From assembly GCA_028291345.1 (NCBI GenBank), contig JAQGIF010000320.1:1-50128 (forward strand): DNA of 50,128 bases. Direction: 5' to 3'. How positions within the stretch are numbered: position 1 is the first letter of the stretch; each line of letters starts with the position of its first letter. A program made the translations under genes and the position numbers. The DNA is from Rhodospirillales bacterium (GTDB taxonomy: Bacteria > Pseudomonadota > Alphaproteobacteria > BOG-932 > Roseiterribacteraceae). The notes beneath the pieces are model-generated. The model was not told where the DNA came from. It was given only the letters and a program-made list of their open reading frames with translations, and made no database searches. Shown piece by piece: positions 421-9,316 of the stretch.

Positions 421-1554
421 ATGGTCTCAGCACCGAGGTGCCTGATCGCAAGCCTTGCCCTGACGCTGGTGGCCGGCTGCATGCAGCACGCCGCCCCGGC
501 CGCCCAGCAGGCGGCCGCGCCCGAACGGCCCAAAGTGGTGGTCGATGCCGGCGACACGGTCCATATCCCGCCGATCGCAGTGCCGGTTTCGCGCTTCATT
601 AGCCCCGAAGCCAAGACCACCCTGCATGAGATCATGACCCACCCATACCCGCCGATCCCCGGCCCCCATGCGCCGTTGGAGGATTACCAGAAGGGCCGCG
701 AGGCCCTGAACCGCGATGTCTATGCCCCGATGATTGCACGGGACAAGGCAAAATACGCGGTCGATCTGGGGTCGGAGACCATCGCCGGCGTCTATGCCGA
801 TACCGTGACGCCCAAAGGCGGCGTGGCCCTGGCGAACAAAGATCGCATCCTGGTGAATGTCCATGGCGGAGCCTTCTATAACGGCGCGCGTACCGAGAGC
901 CTGGTCGAATCCATCCCCATAGCCGCCCTCGGCAAGATCAAGGTGATCAGCCTAGATTACCGCGAGGGGCCGGAATACAAGTTTCCGGCCGCCAGCGAGG
1001 ACGTGGCCGCCGTCTACAGGGAGCTGCTAAAGCATTACAAATCGAAGAATATCGGTATCTATGGATGTTCCGCTGGCGGAACGCTGACGGCCGAGGCGAT
1101 GGCCTGGTTCCAGAAGGAGAAGCTGCCCAATCCAGGCGCGATCGGCATTTTCTGCGCCGGTGGGGTACGTGGCATCGCCGGCGATTCCGCCTATATCGCC
1201 CCCCCGTTGGCCTACGCCCAGATGCCGCCCCCGCCGATGATGCCCGCCGTGGACGCGCAGGAGCCGGGTGGTTATTTCGCCGGGACCGAGGCCGTGGACC
1301 CGCTGGTGTCTCCTGCCAATTCCTTGTCCATCCTGGCCAAGTTCCCTCCGACATTGATCATCAGCGCCTCACGCGATATGGCGCTGAGCGCCGCGCTTTT
1401 TACCCATACCCAGCTTTTGAAGGCCGGCGCGCATGCGGAACTCTATGTTGCTGAGGGCCTATGGCACGGCTTCCTGTTCGATCCCGACCTGCCGGAGGCG
1501 CAGGACGCTCTGGCCGTCGTCACAAAGTTCTTCGACCATCATCTGGGGAAATAA
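421..1554 (+). CDS. alpha/beta-hydrolase esterase, lipoprotein, hormone-sensitive-lipase type
   Basis: This 377-residue protein is probably a membrane-anchored carboxylesterase. The N-terminus is a lipoprotein signal with lipobox LVAGC (Cys20). The oxyanion motif HGGAF precedes the nucleophile elbow GCSAG with Ser217. Asp319 (in SRDMALS) and His349 (in GLWHGF) complete a plausible catalytic triad. The HSL/family IV consensus is GDSAG, so the Cys before the Ser is a variant. The ATG at 421 has a GGAGG about 10 bases upstream. The next gene starts 2 bases after its stop, and the downstream SDR and enoyl-CoA hydratase follow closely, so the three probably form an operon for ester or acyl-chain catabolism. 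The substrate cannot be read from the sequence. Confidence 0.85.
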   Translation: MVSAPRCLIASLALTLVAGCMQHAAPAAQQAAAPERPKVVVDAGDTVHIPPIAVPVSRFISPEAKTTLHEIMTHPYPPIPGPHAPLEDYQKGREALNRDVYAPMIARDKAKYAVDLGSETIAGVYADTVTPKGGVALANKDRILVNVHGGAFYNGARTESLVESIPIAALGKIKVISLDYREGPEYKFPAASEDVAAVYRELLKHYKSKNIGIYGCSAGGTLTAEAMAWFQKEKLPNPGAIGIFCAGGVRGIAGDSAYIAPPLAYAQMPPPPMMPAVDAQEPGGYFAGTEAVDPLVSPANSLSILAKFPPTLIISASRDMALSAALFTHTQLLKAGAHAELYVAEGLWHGFLFDPDLPEAQDALAVVTKFFDHHLGK

Positions 1555-1556
1555 CC

Positions 1557-2381
1557 ATGGCCGCACTAGATCTTTTCGGACTTGAAGGCAAAGCCGCTTT
1601 GGTAATCGGCGGCGGCCAGGGCATGGGCGAAAGCACCGCTCGGATGCTCGCCGCGGCCGGATGCGATGTCGCGGTGGTCGATGTCGAGCGCGACCGCGCC
1701 GAACGGGTTGCCGACGCGGTGTGCGGGATCGGCCGCAAGGGCTTCGCCATCATCGCGAACGTGCTGGACGACGATCAGGCGGCCTATGCGGTTGAGGAGG
1801 CCGAACGTCAATTGGGCGGGTTGGACGTCATGGTCTCGATCGTTGGCCAGGCCCTGTTCACCCCCATCATCGAAATGACGCCTGAGGATTGGGACAAGGA
1901 CCATCGTCGCAATCTGCGCTATTTCTTCGTCAGCGCCCGGCTGGTGGCGCGGTCGATGATCGCGCGCGGCAAGGGTGGCGCGGTGGTCTGCATCGCCTCC
2001 ACCGACGGGATACAGTCGGCGCCGTTCCACGCAGCCTATGGTGCGGCCAAGGCCGGGTTGATCCAGTTGACCGCGACGATGGCGACCGAATGGGCGGTTC
2101 ACGGCATCCGCGTCAACGCCGTGGCGCCCGGCAGCATCAGCACGCCGCGTCTGCCCGAAACCCAGGCCCATCGCGACGCGATGAAGGCCAGCCTGGTGCC
2201 GATGGAACGATCCGGCACGACCGATGATATCGGCAAGGCTGTCCTCTTTCTGGCTTCGGACATGGCCAGCTATACTACCGGCCACACGCTGCTGGTCGAT
2301 GGCGGCTGGATGGCCGCCAACCTGTTCGACGCGCGCAAGATGGCGATCAAGAAAAGCACCGAAAACCGCCTGTCAAACTGA
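1557..2381 (+). CDS. short-chain dehydrogenase/reductase (SDR)
   Basis: A 274-residue NAD(P)-dependent oxidoreductase. The Rossmann motif is GGGQGMG (Gly18, Gly22, Gly24), and the catalytic Ser148, Tyr161 and Lys165 (YGAAK) have the classic spacing. The C-terminus has the usual VDGGW segment. An acidic VVDVE stretch at the end of beta-2 suggests NAD rather than NADP. The usual NNAG motif after beta-4 is replaced by VSIVGQA. The ATG at 1557 was chosen because it starts the Rossmann fold at the normal distance and lies 2 bases after the esterase stop; a longer frame reaches back into the esterase gene. The substrate is unknown, and the neighbours (esterase, enoyl-CoA hydratase) point to a small hydroxyacyl or alcohol intermediate. 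Confidence 0.9.
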   Translation: MAALDLFGLEGKAALVIGGGQGMGESTARMLAAAGCDVAVVDVERDRAERVADAVCGIGRKGFAIIANVLDDDQAAYAVEEAERQLGGLDVMVSIVGQALFTPIIEMTPEDWDKDHRRNLRYFFVSARLVARSMIARGKGGAVVCIASTDGIQSAPFHAAYGAAKAGLIQLTATMATEWAVHGIRVNAVAPGSISTPRLPETQAHRDAMKASLVPMERSGTTDDIGKAVLFLASDMASYTTGHTLLVDGGWMAANLFDARKMAIKKSTENRLSN

Positions 2382-2393
2382 GTGAGAGCTGAA

Positions 2394-3233
2394 ATGTCGG
2401 AAGCCAAACCCATGGACTATATCCTTTACGAAGTGCGCGACCGGGTCGCCGTCATCACCTTGAACCGGCCCAACCAGCGCAATGCTCAGAACAAGCAGCT
2501 GTTGATGGAGCTGGACCATGCCTGGGACATGGCGGCCGAAGACAAGAATGTCCGCGTCATCGTGCTCAAGGCCAACGGCCCGCATTTCTCCGCCGGCCAC
2601 GACATCGCCCGCGACGAAACCTATGAGGCCAAGGTGGCCGAGGTGCTGGGCGACGTCCACAGCACCGGCCTCTACGACCTGCATGCCTGGGAGGGAAAAT
2701 ATTACCTGGGCTATTGCCGCAAATGGCGCGACGTGCCCAAACCCTCGATTGCCGCGGTCCAGGGCGCCTGCATCGCCGCCGGACTGATGCTGGCCTGGCC
2801 GTGCGACCTGATCGTCGCCGCCGAAAATGCGAAGTTCAGCGACCCTGTCGTCCGCATGGGCATCGGTGGCGTCGAGTATCACGGCCATACGTGGGAGTTC
2901 GGGGCGCGCAAGGCCAAGGAACTGCTGTTCACCGCCAAGTCGATCACCGCCGCCGAGGCCGAGAAGCTCGGCATGGTCAACCGCGTCGTTCCGCTGGACC
3001 AGTTGGAAGAGTCGGCGATGGCTTTGGCCAACGAGATCGCCCAGATGCACCCCTTCGCACTGGCGATGGCCAAGCGCGCAGTCAACCAGACCCTGGACAT
3101 ACAGGGCCAATATGCTGCGCAGCAGGCTGTTTTCGATGTCCATCAACTTGGTCATGGTAGTGCACTAGCGCAGACCGGGGAGGCCGTCCTGATGTGGCTG
3201 GACGGCCTGAAGCCGGCCAATAAGGCGAGTTAG
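2394..3233 (+). CDS. enoyl-CoA hydratase/isomerase family protein
   Basis: A crotonase-fold protein of 279 residues. The N-terminal ITLNRPNQRNA segment and HFSAGHDI carry the first oxyanion-hole region. The second, GACIAAGLMLAWPCDLI, is followed by AENAKFSDP. Crotonases hydrate, isomerise or hydrolyse acyl-CoA thioesters, but the precise reaction cannot be assigned. The catalytic Glu pair of classical enoyl-CoA hydratases is not obvious around VVRMGIGGVEYHG, so it may act on a non-standard substrate. ATG 2394 is preferred over the GTG at 2382 because a GAGAG stretch lies just upstream. It is the third gene of the esterase-SDR-hydratase run. Confidence 0.88.
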   Translation: MSEAKPMDYILYEVRDRVAVITLNRPNQRNAQNKQLLMELDHAWDMAAEDKNVRVIVLKANGPHFSAGHDIARDETYEAKVAEVLGDVHSTGLYDLHAWEGKYYLGYCRKWRDVPKPSIAAVQGACIAAGLMLAWPCDLIVAAENAKFSDPVVRMGIGGVEYHGHTWEFGARKAKELLFTAKSITAAEAEKLGMVNRVVPLDQLEESAMALANEIAQMHPFALAMAKRAVNQTLDIQGQYAAQQAVFDVHQLGHGSALAQTGEAVLMWLDGLKPANKAS

Positions 3234-3285
3234 GGATTTATCGCTGAGCCTTCGCCCTTGGGGGCTATCGCATTTGAATTTGTTT

Positions 3286-3364
3286 CGTCATTCCCGGAAA
3301 GCGGGAACCCGTCCAGCGGCCAGCACAGCCGGAGCCATGGGTTCCCGCTTTCGCGGGAATGACG
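3286..3364. repeat. imperfect inverted repeat, REP-like hairpin
   Basis: Left arm 3286-3310 and right arm 3339-3364 are reverse complements over 25 of 26 bases. The core is cgtcattcccgcgaaagcgg, and the left arm lacks one c. A 28-base spacer separates the arms. It sits between the hydratase stop and the Anbu start. Such CATTCCCGCG...CGCGGGAATG palindromes are typical dispersed intergenic repeats in GC-rich proteobacteria. As RNA it would form a long hairpin that could end or protect the upstream transcript. I saw no second copy in this window. Confidence 0.8.
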
Positions 3365-3384
3365 AATAGTTAGGAACTGACTAA

Positions 3385-4134
3385 ATGACTTACTGCGTCG
3401 GTCTCGATCTCAAGGGCGGGATGGTCCTGCTGTCCGACACCCGCACCAATGCCGGTGTCGATAATATCTCCACCTTTTCGAAGATGCATGTCTTCGAGAA
3501 GAAAGGCGACCGCGTCATCGTCCTTCTCGGGGCAGGCAATCTCGCAACCACGCAGGCGGTGGTGAACCTGCTGAACGAGGGGCTCGAGATCGACGGCAAG
3601 GTCCGCACGCTCGCCACCGTGAAGACGATGTTCCGCGCGGCCGAACTGGTGGGCGAGGCAATCCGAAGGGTCTATCGCATGGACGGCAAGTCGATGGAGG
3701 ACCACAACGTGTCCTTCGATGTCTCGTTCCTGATGGGCGGCCAGATCAGACAAGGCAAGCTGTCGCTGTTCGAAATCTACTCAGCCGGCAATTTCATCGA
3801 GGCGACGCAGGACACACCCTATCTGCAGATTGGTGAGCATAAATACGGCAAGCCGATCCTGGACCGCACCGCGCGGTTCGAAACCGAACTGTATGACGGG
3901 GTGAAATTGGCGCTGGTCTCGATGGATTCCACTTTGCGCAGCAACCTGTCGGTCGGCCTGCCGATCGACCTTTTAGTCTATCGCCGCGACTCGCTCGAAA
4001 TCGAGCTTAAGCGCCGGATCACCGAAAGCGACGATTATTTCCGGATGCTGCGCGAGCGCTGGTCGGCGGCGCTGCGCGAAGCCTACCGCACCATTCCGCA
4101 ACCGAGCTGGCCTCCCGCGAAGGAGACGGCATAA
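3385..4134 (+). CDS. Anbu, proteasome-like (HslV-related) peptidase
   Basis: This 249-residue Ntn-hydrolase belongs to the Anbu (ancestral beta-subunit) family. The diagnostic start MTYCVGL is followed by SDTRTNAGVDNIS, MHVFEKKGDRVIVLL and GNLATTQAVVNLL. Removal of Met1 would expose Thr2 as N-terminal nucleophile, as in proteasome beta subunits. The length matches the family. Anbu is usually encoded with an alpha-E protein, a circularly permuted ATP-grasp protein and a transglutaminase-like protease; none of these is in the window. The gene stands alone between the palindromic repeat and a convergent GST, with about 150 bases upstream for its own promoter. Its cellular substrate is not known. 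Confidence 0.92.
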   Translation: MTYCVGLDLKGGMVLLSDTRTNAGVDNISTFSKMHVFEKKGDRVIVLLGAGNLATTQAVVNLLNEGLEIDGKVRTLATVKTMFRAAELVGEAIRRVYRMDGKSMEDHNVSFDVSFLMGGQIRQGKLSLFEIYSAGNFIEATQDTPYLQIGEHKYGKPILDRTARFETELYDGVKLALVSMDSTLRSNLSVGLPIDLLVYRRDSLEIELKRRITESDDYFRMLRERWSAALREAYRTIPQPSWPPAKETA

Positions 4135-4178: not shown

Positions 4179-4835
4179 TCAGAACTCGCTTTCGAATTCC
4201 AGCTCCTCTTCATCCTCGTTCATGGCGGCGTCCATCCACTCCACCATGGTGGGCATCGCCAGTATCCGCTGGCAATAGCCGCTGCAGACCGCGTCCAGCT
4301 TGATGTTATAGGTCAGGAACCTGAGCACTACCGGCGCATACATGGCATCGGCCATGGTCAATTCGCCGAACAGAAACGGGCCACCCGACCCTGCTAGGCA
4401 GTCGTTCCAAATCGTGGAAATCCGTTCGATATCCTGCCAGGCGATGACGTAGGGGTCGTAACCCGGCAGAGCGCGGCCCCGGATATTCATCGGGCAGGTC
4501 GTGCGCAGCCGATGAAACCCGGCGTGAATCTCGCAGCAGACAGCGCGGCAATGGGCGCGTACCGCCGGATCCTTGGGCAGCATGGCGACGTCGGGTGCGA
4601 TCTCGTTCAGATATTCGCCGATCGCCAGCGGGTCCCATATCTTGATGCCATCATGGATGAGGGCCGGCACGAGGATCGAGGGCGATAACAGCAGGACTTC
4701 GGCGCGATGCGCGGGGTTGTCCAGCGCTACCGTCTCCTCGACAAAATCCAGCCCCGCCATCTTGGCAATCAACCAGCCGCGCAGCGACCAGGATGAGTAG
4801 TTCTTGCTGCCAATGATCAATTTGGGCTGAGCCAT
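4179..4835 (-). CDS. glutathione S-transferase family protein
   Basis: A 218-residue cytosolic GST-fold protein. The N-terminal thioredoxin-like domain begins LIIGSKNYSSWSLRGWL, where the Ser pair is the likely glutathione-activating site. ILVPALIHDG contains the cis-proline, and IWDPLAIGEYL corresponds to the GSH gamma-glutamyl site (normally E/D-S). The C-terminal helical domain follows. The protein ends in an acidic tail, EDEEELEFESEF. ATG 4835 was chosen because AAGGAG lies 5 bases upstream; a GTG two codons earlier has no spacing for it. It is convergent with the Anbu gene and monocistronic. Confidence 0.88.
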   Translation of the reverse strand: MAQPKLIIGSKNYSSWSLRGWLIAKMAGLDFVEETVALDNPAHRAEVLLLSPSILVPALIHDGIKIWDPLAIGEYLNEIAPDVAMLPKDPAVRAHCRAVCCEIHAGFHRLRTTCPMNIRGRALPGYDPYVIAWQDIERISTIWNDCLAGSGGPFLFGELTMADAMYAPVVLRFLTYNIKLDAVCSGYCQRILAMPTMVEWMDAAMNEDEEELEFESEF

Positions 4836-5080
4836 TTCCACTCCTTCACAATGTCAAGGATAGACATGCGAAACGCTACAACGACTGGCGGCCTTCTGCC
4901 AATCCGCCGGCCGGATTACCAACCGGGAAGGGCCGCATCCGGACGACATACAAAGTGGTCCGACCGTCCGAATTCTGTATGAGGCGGCTTCCAAGGCGGA
5001 TGGCCGAAATCATGCCGTCTGTTCGCGCGCGGGCCGGATCCGGCCGGATATTTCGGCCCAGGTCCACGGCTTTCGGCAGC

Positions 5081-5685
5081 ATGATTGGCGCGATGATCAT
5101 GATCGGCCTGACCCCGCTCGCCCGTGCCGACGAGGTTCCGCCGCCGGCGCTCAAACACGGGATCAATCTGTCGAACTGGTTCGCCGATGCCGGACGCCAG
5201 CCACTGGCCATACGCGATTTCGAGTAGATCAAGAATGCCGGCTTCGACCATGTCCGCATACCGGTCAATCCCGAGTCGCTGGGCTTCTCCTTGTCCGAAG
5301 GTTCGACCGGGCGTTGTGTTCGATTTCGCGAATCTTGACGTGGCGATAGGCACGGCGCGGGCCGGGGACTGTCGGCCATCATCGACATCCATTCCAGCGA
5401 CAACTTCATGGGCAGATCGAACAGGACCGACGCGCCGAGGCTGGACCAATCGCGCTGTGGCAGCATCTGGCCGAACATTATAAGCCCTTTTCGGACGCCA
5501 GGAAGGCACTCGAGACGAACGATATCGACTGTGACCTGTGGGACTATACCGGCCTGTTCGGCGTCACCCTGCTGACCGGGGACACGATCTCCGATCCCGG
5601 CGACGGCTCGGTCCGCTTAGCCAACCCGGACGAGGGCTCGCGCGCTATCGAGCTCGAGGCGATAAAGCCTTTCGGCGGCGGTTAG
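5081..5685 (+). pseudogene. degraded glycoside hydrolase family 5 (cellulase-like) gene
   Basis: Fragments in all three forward frames line up with a secreted GH5 endoglucanase. A signal-like MIGAMIMIGLTPLARADE leads to KHGINLSNWFADAG and RDFE. A TAG at 5225-5227 then stands where CAG (Gln) is expected before IKNAGFDHVRIPVNPESLG. Near 5290-5300 the frame shifts to RPGVVFDFANLDVAIGTARA, then to GLSAIIDIHSSDNFMG, then to LWQHLAEHYKPFSD, and finally DLWDYTGLFGVTLLTGDTI to the end. The roughly 200-residue remnant is much shorter than a GH5 domain, so the middle with the catalytic acids appears deleted (inference from length). Its stop codon overlaps the stop of the convergent coxL-like gene. The region 4842-5080 upstream holds nothing else I can support. 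Confidence 0.7.
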
Positions 5686-8033
5686 ACCGCTGCCTTGGCC
5701 GCCGCCCGCTGCAAGGTTTCCCAGACGCGCAGCGCGGTCATCGGCATATCGACTTCACGGACGCCTTTATCCCACAGCGCATCCAGCACCGCGTTCATAA
5801 CTGCTGGAGCCGCGCCGACCGTACCGGCCTCGCCGCAGCCTTTGATGCCGAGCGGATTGGTCGTGCACAATATCTCGTTATAGGTGAAGCCGAATGACGG
5901 CAGGTCGTCGGCGCGCGGCATGGTGTAGTCCATGAACGATCCGCTCAGGAGCTGAGCGGTGCCGGGCTCATAGAGGCAGTTCTCGAGCAGGGCTTGCCCG
6001 ATCCCTTGCGCCACGCCGCCATGCACCTGGCCGGCGACGATCAGCGGGTTGAGCACGAAGCCGAAATCGTCGACGACATCGTATGAGATGACAGACACCT
6101 TGCCGGTGTCTGGATCGATCTCGAGTTCGCAGATGTGACAGCCATTGGGGAAGGTATCGCCCTTCTCCTCATGGGTCCCTGACGAGTCGAGCCCTTTCTC
6201 CAGCCGCGCCTTCAATTCCGGCGGCAGCTTCGATCCAGCGCGCGCGGCCTCGGCGACTTCGAGCAGCGGCAGGAACTGGTTGGTGCCATGAACACGGAAC
6301 GCGCCTTCCTCGAAGGTAATCGCATCCTGGGCGGTGTCCATCAGCGCCGCGGCCACTTCCCGGCCCTTGTCGATCACCGCATCGGCCGCCTTCAGAATGC
6401 CATTGCCGCTGTTCCACAGCGACCTAGACCCACCCGTTCCACCGCCCCACGGCGCACGGATGCTGTCGCCCTGGATCAGGTCGATCGAGTCGAACGGAAC
6501 GCCGAGTTTATCGGCGACGATGGCGGCGAAGGTCGTCTCATGTCCCTGCCCATGCGCTGACGTGCCGACGCCGACCTCGACCCGGCCGGCTGGCGTGAAG
6601 GAGATAACGACTGCACTGGCACCCCCCGCCGTCTTTTCGATGTAATAGGCAAGGCCTCGGCCGCGCAGCTTCCCGCGTTTTTCAGCTTCGGCGCGGCGGG
6701 CGGGAAATCCGGCCCAATCCGCCTGCCGCAGGCAATCATGGAGATTCCGCTGGAAATCGCCGCTATCGATGACGGCACCGACATAGGACCGGAAAGGCAT
6801 CTCATGCGACTGGATGAAGTTCCGCAAACGGATTTCGTCCTGGCTCAACCCCATCTCGCGTGCCGCCAGATCCATGATCCGTTCGATGATATAGGCAGCT
6901 TCGGGACGGCCGGCGCCGCGATAGGCCTCGACCGGTACGGTGTTGGTGAAAACCGCGCGAACATGGTTGTACACCACCGGCACCTTATAAACGCCCCCGA
7001 CGACAAACATTGGAACGACGCTTTGGATGCCGGGGCCGAAGCCGAGGCCATAGGCTCCGAGGTTAAAGTCGGTCTTGATCCTGTAACCAAGGATGCGACC
7101 ACCGGCATCGAACGCCATCTCGGCATGGCTCTTCAGGTCCCGGCCGTGGCTGTCGGATTGGAACGCCTCGGTGCGCTCGGACATCCATTTCACCGGCATT
7201 CCGAACTTTTCCGATGCGATCAGAACCAGCGGATATTCGGCGAAGGTAGACATCTTGAGCCCGAAGCCGCCGCCGACATCCGGAGTGATGACACGCAACC
7301 GTTCCGGCGGAATCCGCAAAATGCGCTTGGCAATCGTATCGGCGATCGGGTGCGAGCCCTGACTGGTGGCGTAAAGCTCGTACTGGCCTGTCACCTTGTC
7401 GTATGTGCCGAACGCGCCGCGCGGCTCCATCGAATTGACGACTACGCGATTATTGACCAGGTCGATCCGAGTCACATGGGCCGCCCGGTCAAAGGCGGCG
7501 TCGGTTGCAGCCTCGTCGCCCTGTGCCCAGTCCAGCGCGATATTGCCCGGAGCCTGCGGCCAAACGAGCGGTGCCCCGGGGTCGAGCGCCTCGTCGATCA
7601 AACCAACCGCCGGCAACTCCTCATAGTCGACCAAGATCTGCTCGGCCGCATCCTTCGCGGCATTCAAGCTCTCGGCCACGACGAACGCGACCGGCTCACC
7701 GACATAGCGGACATAATCGACGGTCAGCAGCGCGCGGTCGCCATCGACTCGGGGGGTGCCGTCGCGGTTCTTGAGAAAGGAAGCGGGGAACGCCGCGCCC
7801 AGATGGCCGATGCCGGCTGCCTCAAGCTCAGCGCCGGTGATAATGCCGATCACGCCCGGCGCGGATTTCGCCGCCTCGACATCGATCGACATTATTTTCG
7901 CATGTGCATAGGGGGAGCGAAGGGCATAGCCGATGGCGGCGCCCTCCATCTTCACGTCATCGACATACCGGCCGCGGCCTGTGATGAAACGTCCATCCTC
8001 GGTGCGCCGGATTGGCTGCGACATCAAACCCAT
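5682..8033 (-). CDS. molybdenum hydroxylase large subunit (form II CoxL / xanthine dehydrogenase family)
   Basis: A 783-residue molybdopterin-cytosine-dinucleotide subunit, full length for the family. The start has RRTEDGRFITGRGRYVDD. The active-site signature is AYRGAGR (370-376), which defines form II, whereas true aerobic CO dehydrogenases carry AYXCSFR. The essential Glu is present in GCGEAGTVGAAP near the C-terminus, and GQGHETTFAAIV and GGTGGSRS contact the cofactor. It should hydroxylate a carbon substrate such as an aldehyde or N-heterocycle in the cytoplasm; the substrate is unknown. It is the last gene of the run: the medium-subunit stop is 1 base upstream of ATG 8033. An alternative ATG at 8024 is possible. 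Confidence 0.9.
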   Translation of the reverse strand: MGLMSQPIRRTEDGRFITGRGRYVDDVKMEGAAIGYALRSPYAHAKIMSIDVEAAKSAPGVIGIITGAELEAAGIGHLGAAFPASFLKNRDGTPRVDGDRALLTVDYVRYVGEPVAFVVAESLNAAKDAAEQILVDYEELPAVGLIDEALDPGAPLVWPQAPGNIALDWAQGDEAATDAAFDRAAHVTRIDLVNNRVVVNSMEPRGAFGTYDKVTGQYELYATSQGSHPIADTIAKRILRIPPERLRVITPDVGGGFGLKMSTFAEYPLVLIASEKFGMPVKWMSERTEAFQSDSHGRDLKSHAEMAFDAGGRILGYRIKTDFNLGAYGLGFGPGIQSVVPMFVVGGVYKVPVVYNHVRAVFTNTVPVEAYRGAGRPEAAYIIERIMDLAAREMGLSQDEIRLRNFIQSHEMPFRSYVGAVIDSGDFQRNLHDCLRQADWAGFPARRAEAEKRGKLRGRGLAYYIEKTAGGASAVVISFTPAGRVEVGVGTSAHGQGHETTFAAIVADKLGVPFDSIDLIQGDSIRAPWGGGTGGSRSLWNSGNGILKAADAVIDKGREVAAALMDTAQDAITFEEGAFRVHGTNQFLPLLEVAEAARAGSKLPPELKARLEKGLDSSGTHEEKGDTFPNGCHICELEIDPDTGKVSVISYDVVDDFGFVLNPLIVAGQVHGGVAQGIGQALLENCLYEPGTAQLLSGSFMDYTMPRADDLPSFGFTYNEILCTTNPLGIKGCGEAGTVGAAPAVMNAVLDALWDKGVREVDMPMTALRVWETLQRAAAKAAV

Positions 8034-8034
8034 C

Positions 8035-8835
8035 TTAAGACTCCAATGCCGAGGTCACTGCACGCGCTGCCATCACACCGACCAAGTGCGCGCGGTAGGC
8101 CGCCGTCGCATGCAGATCGGTATTCAGATCGTCCGCATCGACAAGGACACTCGCGATGGCTTCCGGCGTAAACGAGGCGGTCAGCGCCGCTTCCATCTCG
8201 GGCACGCGAAACACGCTGGGGCCCGCCCCCGTCACCGCGACGCGCACGCCGCCAGCCGCCCGCGCGACGAATACGCCCGCGACGGCATAGCGGGATGCAG
8301 GATTGGGAAACTTGGCATAGCCCGCAGCCTCCGGAATCGGGAAGCGCACCTGACGTACGATCTCGCCCGGTTCCAGCGCCGTTTCGAACATGCCGGTAAA
8401 GAAATTGTCGGCCGCGATCTCGCGCCTGTCGGTCACCACGGTCGCGCCGAGCCCCACCACACCGGCCGGATAATCGGCCGCGGGGTCGGCATTCGAGATC
8501 GAGCCGCCGATCGTGCCGCGATGGCGAACCTGCGGATCGCCAATCCCTTCGGCGAGGGCCGCAAGCGCCGGCAGCGCCGCCCTGACCTCAGCGGAATGCG
8601 CGACCGTCGCATGGGTCGTCATCGCGCCGATGCGGACTTCTCCATCGCCGACAAATATCCCGGCCAGGTCGGGCAACCCACCGAGATCGACCAAGTCGCT
8701 CGGACTTGCCAGACGCTGTTTCAAGGTGGGGATCAAGGTCATCCCGCCGGCCAGCAGCCGAGCCTCGGGATTGGCATTCAGCAGTGCGGTGGCTTCGGCC
8801 AGCGAACGCGGCTTGTGATAATCGAACGCGTACAT
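8035..8835 (-). CDS. molybdenum hydroxylase FAD-binding (medium, CoxM-like) subunit
   Basis: A 266-residue FAD subunit that passes electrons from the 2Fe-2S clusters to the acceptor. The two flavin-binding loops are visible: LLAGGMTLIPTL (AGG at 29-31) and TIGGS at 108-112, followed by NADPAADYPA. The C-terminal CO-dehydrogenase flavoprotein domain follows. ATG 8835 was chosen over a longer frame that overlaps the small-subunit gene, because MYAFDYHKPRSLAEA is the normal N-terminus. It sits 1 base downstream of the small-subunit stop and is followed by the large subunit. Confidence 0.92.
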   Translation of the reverse strand: MYAFDYHKPRSLAEATALLNANPEARLLAGGMTLIPTLKQRLASPSDLVDLGGLPDLAGIFVGDGEVRIGAMTTHATVAHSAEVRAALPALAALAEGIGDPQVRHRGTIGGSISNADPAADYPAGVVGLGATVVTDRREIAADNFFTGMFETALEPGEIVRQVRFPIPEAAGYAKFPNPASRYAVAGVFVARAAGGVRVAVTGAGPSVFRVPEMEAALTASFTPEAIASVLVDADDLNTDLHATAAYRAHLVGVMAARAVTSALES

Positions 8836-8836
8836 A

Positions 8837-9316
8837 TTAAGCCTTCGCCATGGCGCGGGCCCCGGCTTCGACCGACGCGACAATGTTATGATAGCCGGTG
8901 CAGCGGCAGATGTTGCCCTCCAGCCACTCGCGAACCTCATGCGGGGTCGGCGACGGGTTGCCCTGTGCGAAATCCACCGCGCTCATGATCATGCCGGGGG
9001 TGCAGAAGCCGCATTGCAGCCCGTGATTCTCATTGAAGGCCGCCTGCATCGGATGGAGTTTCTCAGGCGTCCCGAGCCCCTCGATCGTGGTGACCGCTTG
9101 GCCATCGGCCTGAACCGCAAGCATCGTGCAGGATTTGACCGATCGCCCGTCCAGATGGACGACGCATGCGCCGCACTGGCTGGTGTCACAGCCGATATGT
9201 GTGCCGGTGAGGCCCAGATGCTCGCGCAGGAACGTTACCAGAAGGGTGCGAGGTTCCACCGCCGCGCTAACGTCGTTGCCATTAACCGAAAACATGACGG
9301 TAACAGTGTCGATCAT
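8837..9316 (-). CDS. molybdenum hydroxylase 2Fe-2S (small, CoxS-like) subunit
   Basis: A 159-residue iron-sulfur subunit with both clusters intact. The N-terminal ferredoxin-type cluster uses Cys43, Cys48, Cys51 and Cys63 (CDTSQCGAC...C). The C-terminal cluster uses Cys102, Cys105, Cys137 and Cys139 (CGFC and CRC). It moves electrons from the molybdenum centre to FAD. The start ATG at 9316 directly abuts the stop of the upstream coxG-like gene (TAGATG), indicating translational coupling. Confidence 0.95.

Follow-up and report, generated by a model that had tools for sequence, protein, structure and literature searches.

The stretch of DNA analysed here (the window) is an entire contig, C159, of 50,128 bp, and carries 3.4 kb from its left end a gene for Anbu, a proteasome-type Ntn-hydrolase. 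An earlier note on this DNA had placed the reading frame exactly, and had described it as lying between an enoyl-CoA hydratase and a GST; both the arrangement and the identification as Anbu are upheld by the present searches, the enoyl-CoA hydratase gene being on the same strand and the GST-family gene on the opposite one. Features of the locus are collected in the table below, together with the Anbu proteins from other genomes that were aligned for comparison.

Table. Features of the Anbu locus (window coordinates) and divergent Anbu proteins sampled from other genomes
Feature	Location	Strand	Basis
Alpha/beta hydrolase (hormone-sensitive-lipase type) and SDR oxidoreductase, upstream, co-directional	421..2381	+	ORF, family search, G001 comparison
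Enoyl-CoA hydratase, upstream neighbour of Anbu	2394..3233	+	ORF, Pfam, G001 comparison
Palindromic element with 13-nt and 14-nt nested inverted repeats, in the gap that precedes Anbu	3284..3366	.	sequence
Anbu (proteasome-type Ntn-hydrolase), Anbu-1 subtype, 249 aa	3385..4134	+	ORF, Pfam, PDB, alignment, tree, S1 pocket
Codon of the nucleophile Thr1	3388..3390	+	sequence, invariant T2 in alignment
GST-family protein, downstream of Anbu, convergent	4179..4841	-	ORF, Pfam
Eight sampled divergent Anbu	G172 L149, G054 L023, G043 L027, G031 L025		alignment
Eight sampled divergent Anbu, continued	G018 L024, G038 L026, G307 L170, G341 L169		alignment

The Anbu reading frame matches the Pfam family Proteasome (PF00227; E 2.1e-7, 31.2 bits with a cut-off of 22.4). 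A search of the PDB returned five distinct sequences at E<=1e-3 (E 2.6e-89 to 3.3e-70) and none besides, three of which are named Anbu (5loy, 5nyj, 5nyf) and two simply Peptidase (5nyw, 5lox); 5nyw is taken here to be an Anbu as well. For 5lox, the identity with Anbu is given in PMC8665760. Thr1, Asp17 and Lys32 (Thr1 numbering) are named as the catalytic residues of Anbu, with Thr1 as the nucleophile (PMC6376114), and all three are invariant across an alignment of 12 sequences that includes the window protein. A split-ring (lock-washer) assembly with a C-terminal helix, H5, is a further trait of the Anbu family. Removal of the start methionine, which presumably occurs, would expose Thr1. The S1 pocket of Anbu-1 in P. 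aeruginosa is described as T20, F30, T48, L52 and S55, and that of Anbu-2 as basic, with paired arginines (PMC5666114). In the alignment, the window protein keeps T20, F30 and L52, has G48 instead of T48 and T55 instead of S55, and lacks paired arginines of the Anbu-2 kind, so that tree position and pocket residues together assign it to the Anbu-1 subtype. Among three species of the genus, dN for Anbu is 0.05-0.16 and dS 0.93-1.18 (0.05 and 0.93 in the comparison with G001, a second species of the genus); as dN lies far below dS, the gene is under purifying selection.

The order lipase, SDR, enoyl-CoA hydratase, Anbu is the same in G001, and seven genes compared around Anbu share 81-93% protein identity with their G001 counterparts. 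The gap between the enoyl-CoA hydratase and Anbu measures about 150 bp in the window but only some 40 bp in G001, a difference that suggests insertion of the palindromic element; its core pattern has one match in the whole window. No counterpart of the GST-family gene turned up at E<=1e-10 within the initial 40 kb of the contig that carries Anbu in G001, nor one of the enoyl-CoA hydratase on the 6-kb Anbu contig of G002, a third member of the genus. Further along the window, three adjoining minus-strand genes (5682-9316), which by eye resemble a molybdenum hydroxylase set, have counterparts in identical order in G001.

Anbu is canonically encoded in an operon with an ATP-grasp protein, an alpha-E protein and a transglutaminase-like protein, as in Y. 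bercovieri (PMC6376114). The earlier note had pointed out that nothing of this module occurs within 50 kb, and a profile search of the window contig likewise gave no match to the ATP-grasp, alpha-E or transglutaminase families. Because Anbu lies so close to the contig end, this observation spans just 3.4 kb upstream of the gene. The doubt is removed by G001, in which Anbu lies on a contig of 88.8 kb that shares the upstream genes and again has no match to any of the three families. Neither in the window nor on the G001 contig, therefore, does Anbu adjoin an ATP-grasp, alpha-E or transglutaminase gene.

All three partner families are present in the genome on other contigs, as the genome-wide search that the earlier note had proposed as a check makes clear, and the module is therefore split rather than absent. 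ATP-grasp (PF14403) and alpha-E (PF04168) lie side by side on contig C113 (46449-48595). Both families are also matched inside a single 902-codon frame on C249, which would encode a fused protein, and the transglutaminase N-domain (PF08379) has three matches on C249, one on C252 and one on C292. The C249 genes form a cluster (G000:C249:560-8971, L029) of a transglutaminase, a large protein bearing the transglutaminase N-domain, the fused ATP-grasp/alpha-E protein and another transglutaminase; in the tree, the fused ATP-grasp is far from both of the ATP-grasp types described below. A second, complete Anbu operon, which would have made the window copy a paralogue, had been named in the earlier note as the case against its reading; it was sought and not found, the draft genome (401 contigs, 97% complete, 3.9% contamination) holding a single Anbu match.

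Could the separation be an artefact, with an operon cut by contig ends or an Anbu contig that is a contaminant? The fragmentation and contamination of the draft and the position of Anbu near a contig end favour such an explanation, and contig ends are likely behind apparent splits in three other genomes (G004, G047, G175). Against this, G001, which is another draft, shows the same gene order at both loci, on contigs that continue to both sides. At the C113 locus, the ATP-grasp is 91% and alpha-E 89% identical to the G001 counterpart, with values of 56-83% among the flanking genes, and the G001 pair, located on a different contig from its Anbu, is flanked on both sides by the genes found on C113. 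In G002 the two loci occupy contigs of 6.0 kb (Anbu) and 7.2 kb (ATP-grasp/alpha-E); alpha-E is followed there by the C113-type neighbour and not by a transglutaminase, and the contigs are too short to tell much about Anbu. Synteny at both loci in G001 rules out an assembly break as the cause of the split in this genus, and the partners present are not of the type found in the operon (see below), so that an artefact of assembly or binning is highly improbable. The split module is both similar to and distinct from the canonical operon of Y. bercovieri (PMC6376114) and of the sister genus (G003): the Anbu-1 type, the catalytic residues and the presence of all four families in the genome are shared, but in the operon the four genes lie together (within about 5 kb, and of type A, in G003), whereas in the present genus they lie on separate contigs and the partners are of type B.

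The earlier note had also considered that Anbu may work alone. According to such a reading, Anbu would be a general peptidase, the other genes would belong to an unrelated type-B system, and co-occurrence would arise because large genomes contain many systems. A survey of 387 alphaproteobacterial genomes, each at least 90% complete, found Anbu in 124, PF14403 in 167 and both in 122. The ATP-grasp family is thus present in 122 of the 124 genomes with Anbu versus 45 of the 263 without (Fisher p 3e-59, with genomes counted as independent although the counts include genomes related to each other). By family, each of the 52 families with Anbu includes one or more genomes that have both, and PF14403 alone is present in 20 more families, a total of 165 families being assumed for the family-level p-value. 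The dependence is one-sided, the ATP-grasp being present in 45 genomes that give no Anbu match; given this, an independent Anbu should likewise occur without the ATP-grasp. No genome with an Anbu match of at least 200 bits lacks the ATP-grasp family. The two Anbu genomes without PF14403 are G341, whose Anbu is divergent and which counts in favour of Anbu working alone, and G384, whose Anbu is fragmented. Fuchs et al. also prefer protein degradation over a role in peptide synthesis for Anbu (PMC5666114), which points the same way. Although the presence of an ATP-grasp in a genome is no proof of interaction with Anbu, the survey makes a solitary Anbu unlikely; it retains some standing as an explanation of the present locus, about which more is said below.

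Two groups of genomes in the survey deserve separate mention. In G384 (C18:12454-12994) Anbu is in three fragments, one with a stop, and no PF14403 match occurs in the genome, possibly through joint loss or else through sequence error. Nine genomes (G191, at C1:4232084-4232809, L148; G397, G270, G373, G094, G166, G375, G136 and G217) have a second Anbu copy of 268-296 bits, in no case within 6 kb of an ATP-grasp; each of the nine has in addition a higher-scoring Anbu that does lie this close to an ATP-grasp.

ATP-grasp trees split the partner genes into two types, the operon type (A) and a second type (B). In a quick tree of 111 rows, 81 members of a clade of 87 have Anbu on the stretch fetched with them, and a clade of 17 is composed of the three rows of the genus, two with Anbu so placed and 12 without. 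A careful tree of 49 rows unites the 33 type-A rows, at 100/100 support, in a clade that leaves out the genus. Joining the genus ATP-grasp with the operon gene of the sister genus is rejected (p-AU 8e-54), and with it the candidate view of the C113 pair as a displaced half of the canonical operon. A test of whether the genus could be the first branch of type B gave an AU p of 0.23, which runs against a fully resolved placement; that test set the genus and type A on one side of a branch and does not put the genus inside type A. The remaining partners agree with type B. A quick tree places the genus transglutaminases from C249 (minus strand), C252 and C292 among those of type B, and 18 of the 19 A-labelled rows group in a separate clade. 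The genus alpha-E shares 32-37% identity with 16 type-A rows and 37-58% with 13 type-B rows. Apart from the fused protein, the ATP-grasps of the genus are of type B only, whereas the sister genus has the type-A operon. All partner families are thus in the genome, with no partner of type A among them. Of the two readings in the earlier note, the split module is supported, being syntenic in a second species, and the solitary Anbu is not supported; that the partners are of type B, as the trees show, lay beyond its view.

Anbu itself groups differently. The larger and the smaller tree both place the genus Anbu with that of G076, whose operon is of type A (support 99/92 and 99/94, respectively). 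A grouping of the genus Anbu with those of other type-B genomes is rejected (p-AU 5e-6, or 5e-8 without G277), and one with the sister-genus Anbu is not (p 0.23). Since Anbu is of the operon type by tree and the partners are of type B by tree, the genus presents a mixed combination. It looks like a hybrid of Anbu-1 with type-B partners, in which the components are known and the arrangement is new. This mismatch between Anbu type and partner type can also be set to the credit of an Anbu that works alone. A linked set in G277, with type-B ATP-grasp, alpha-E and transglutaminase and an Anbu-1 within about 5 kb, suggests that the mixed pairing may exist elsewhere in linked form; the tree position of that Anbu is weakly supported.

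In the survey, type B was called for the 45 genomes above a gap (637 to 569) in BLAST bits against the genus ATP-grasp, the call being made after the gap was seen and only part of the survey genomes having had sequences examined for type. Among the matches listed, Anbu lies within 6 kb of an ATP-grasp in 2 of the 35 type-B genomes with Anbu and in 71 of the 87 others (at least 74 with G220, G241 and G276), the remainder including contig breaks or unresolved cases (G070 and G315 for type B; G004, G047 and G175 for the others). Ten of the 45 type-B genomes have no Anbu match at all, a further point in favour of Anbu working alone.

Most type-B genomes with Anbu carry a divergent form of it. Where an Anbu match below 200 bits occurs together with the ATP-grasp, 23 of 24 genomes are of type B, versus 12 of 98 for stronger Anbu matches (p 4e-15, genomes counted as independent). 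Of the 26 matches below 200 bits, one of which (G087) is a fragment, none has an ATP-grasp within 6 kb: six share a contig with one at a distance of more than 370 kb, and the others sit on different contigs or belong to genomes lacking a PF14403 match. Eight of these proteins (see table) were aligned; all keep Thr1, Asp17 and Lys32, and two arginines fall in the S1 region. The group may accordingly be described as Anbu-2-like, the S1 residues of the sampled members being the sole basis of this designation. Like the window Anbu, the divergent proteins are not beside a type-B ATP-grasp; unlike it, the eight sampled carry the two S1-region arginines, the window protein being of the Anbu-1 kind. 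A plasmid search with a divergent Anbu returned 25 records, all below 60% identity.

A distinct arrangement is seen in G044 (L043:8245-12303), G028 (L044:9726-11384) and G070 (L155:6059-7484), in which Anbu is convergent with a type-B transglutaminase. The ends of the two genes are 12 bp apart in G044 and G028, and the G044 locus continues with alpha-E and ATP-grasp on the opposite strand. A remnant of Anbu was looked for beside the C249 transglutaminase, at the position that Anbu occupies in G028 and G070, and by the orthologous transglutaminase in G001; there is no Anbu match on C249, nor in the G001 stretch holding that gene.

Separation of Anbu from its partners extends to named genomes. 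At 11 of 80 named Anbu loci the available flank contains no partner, with little upstream sequence at two (L059, L092), and all 11 genomes carry PF14403, which argues against an Anbu that works alone. In Azorhizobium and Xanthobacter, Anbu lies about 407 kb and about 852 kb, respectively, from the ATP-grasp on what is, judging by equal length, one contig; in Labrys sp. KNU-23 the gene order is kept, with about 10 kb between transglutaminase and Anbu. These dispersed modules resemble the genus in that Anbu is apart from ATP-grasp and alpha-E and the partners are kept in the genome, but differ in that the type-A ATP-grasp, alpha-E and transglutaminase stay together and Anbu alone is apart. The ATP-grasp rows from nine of the 11 genomes all fall in type A in the 49-row tree, so that unlinked Anbu is not confined to type B, and separation alone is no pointer to type B. 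Among the titles listed by literature searches, none concerns dispersed or stand-alone Anbu.

A further explanation holds that the module is split in the genome only, its loci forming one regulon, for example under nitrogen control, and acting as the usual operon does. In P. putida, PP_2685, annotated as bacterial proteasome, beta subunit, and PP_2688, a circularly permuted ATP-grasp, respond to the source of nitrogen (log2 4.44 and 3.99; PMC8050072), and COG3484, a proteasome-type protease, is named in a study of the sigma-54 regulon (PMC12316311). A shared promoter of this kind was not found in the present genus: a simple scan of 400 nt upstream, run without a positive control, gave no sigma-54-like site with two mismatches or fewer at Anbu or ATP-grasp in three species, or at the type-B transglutaminase in two, with a background of about 0.1 such sites per 400 nt. 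A common regulon is accordingly given little weight, less than an Anbu that works alone, which is itself held to be rather improbable.

The reading preferred here, with a fair measure of confidence, is that the sole Anbu found in the genome works in trans with a dispersed amidoligase module. Type-A partners would have disappeared from the genus, or would never have lasted in it; Anbu would have remained, or have come in on its own, and would have come to serve the type-B set. The ATP-grasp with alpha-E may make or attach a short peptide or amide, which the transglutaminase-like enzyme may trim or transfer, and Anbu, as a Thr1 hydrolase, may cut the product or the tagged protein. For the Y. bercovieri operon, PMC6376114 reports that the ATP-grasp releases phosphate from ATP, that pull-down of the operon proteins gave no specific interaction and that no peptidase activity was detected. 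A link between Anbu and ligase through a shared product requires neither a single operon nor a matching partner type; as Anbu is nearly never without the ligase family, is often unlinked and is here re-partnered, coupling is probably through the product. The survey relies on draft genomes, and all function is deduced from sequence.

Extended to the class, the same material suggests a picture that is offered tentatively, at somewhat less than even expectation: Alphaproteobacteria would possess the Anbu system in two versions, one a type-A operon that includes Anbu-1, the other a dispersed type B whose ATP-grasp/alpha-E pair is mostly accompanied by Anbu-2-like proteins of basic pocket, with the present genus as a re-partnered natural hybrid. 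That Anbu can be off its operon and yet almost never without the ATP-grasp family argues for a functional dependence for which the genes need not share an operon. Because the two partner types are associated with Anbu subtypes, they provide a way to pair peptidase and ligase specificity, for the testing of which the hybrid genus would offer a natural partner swap. If the hybrid is real, it would imply that a common product, rather than a fixed complex, brings peptidase and ligase together.
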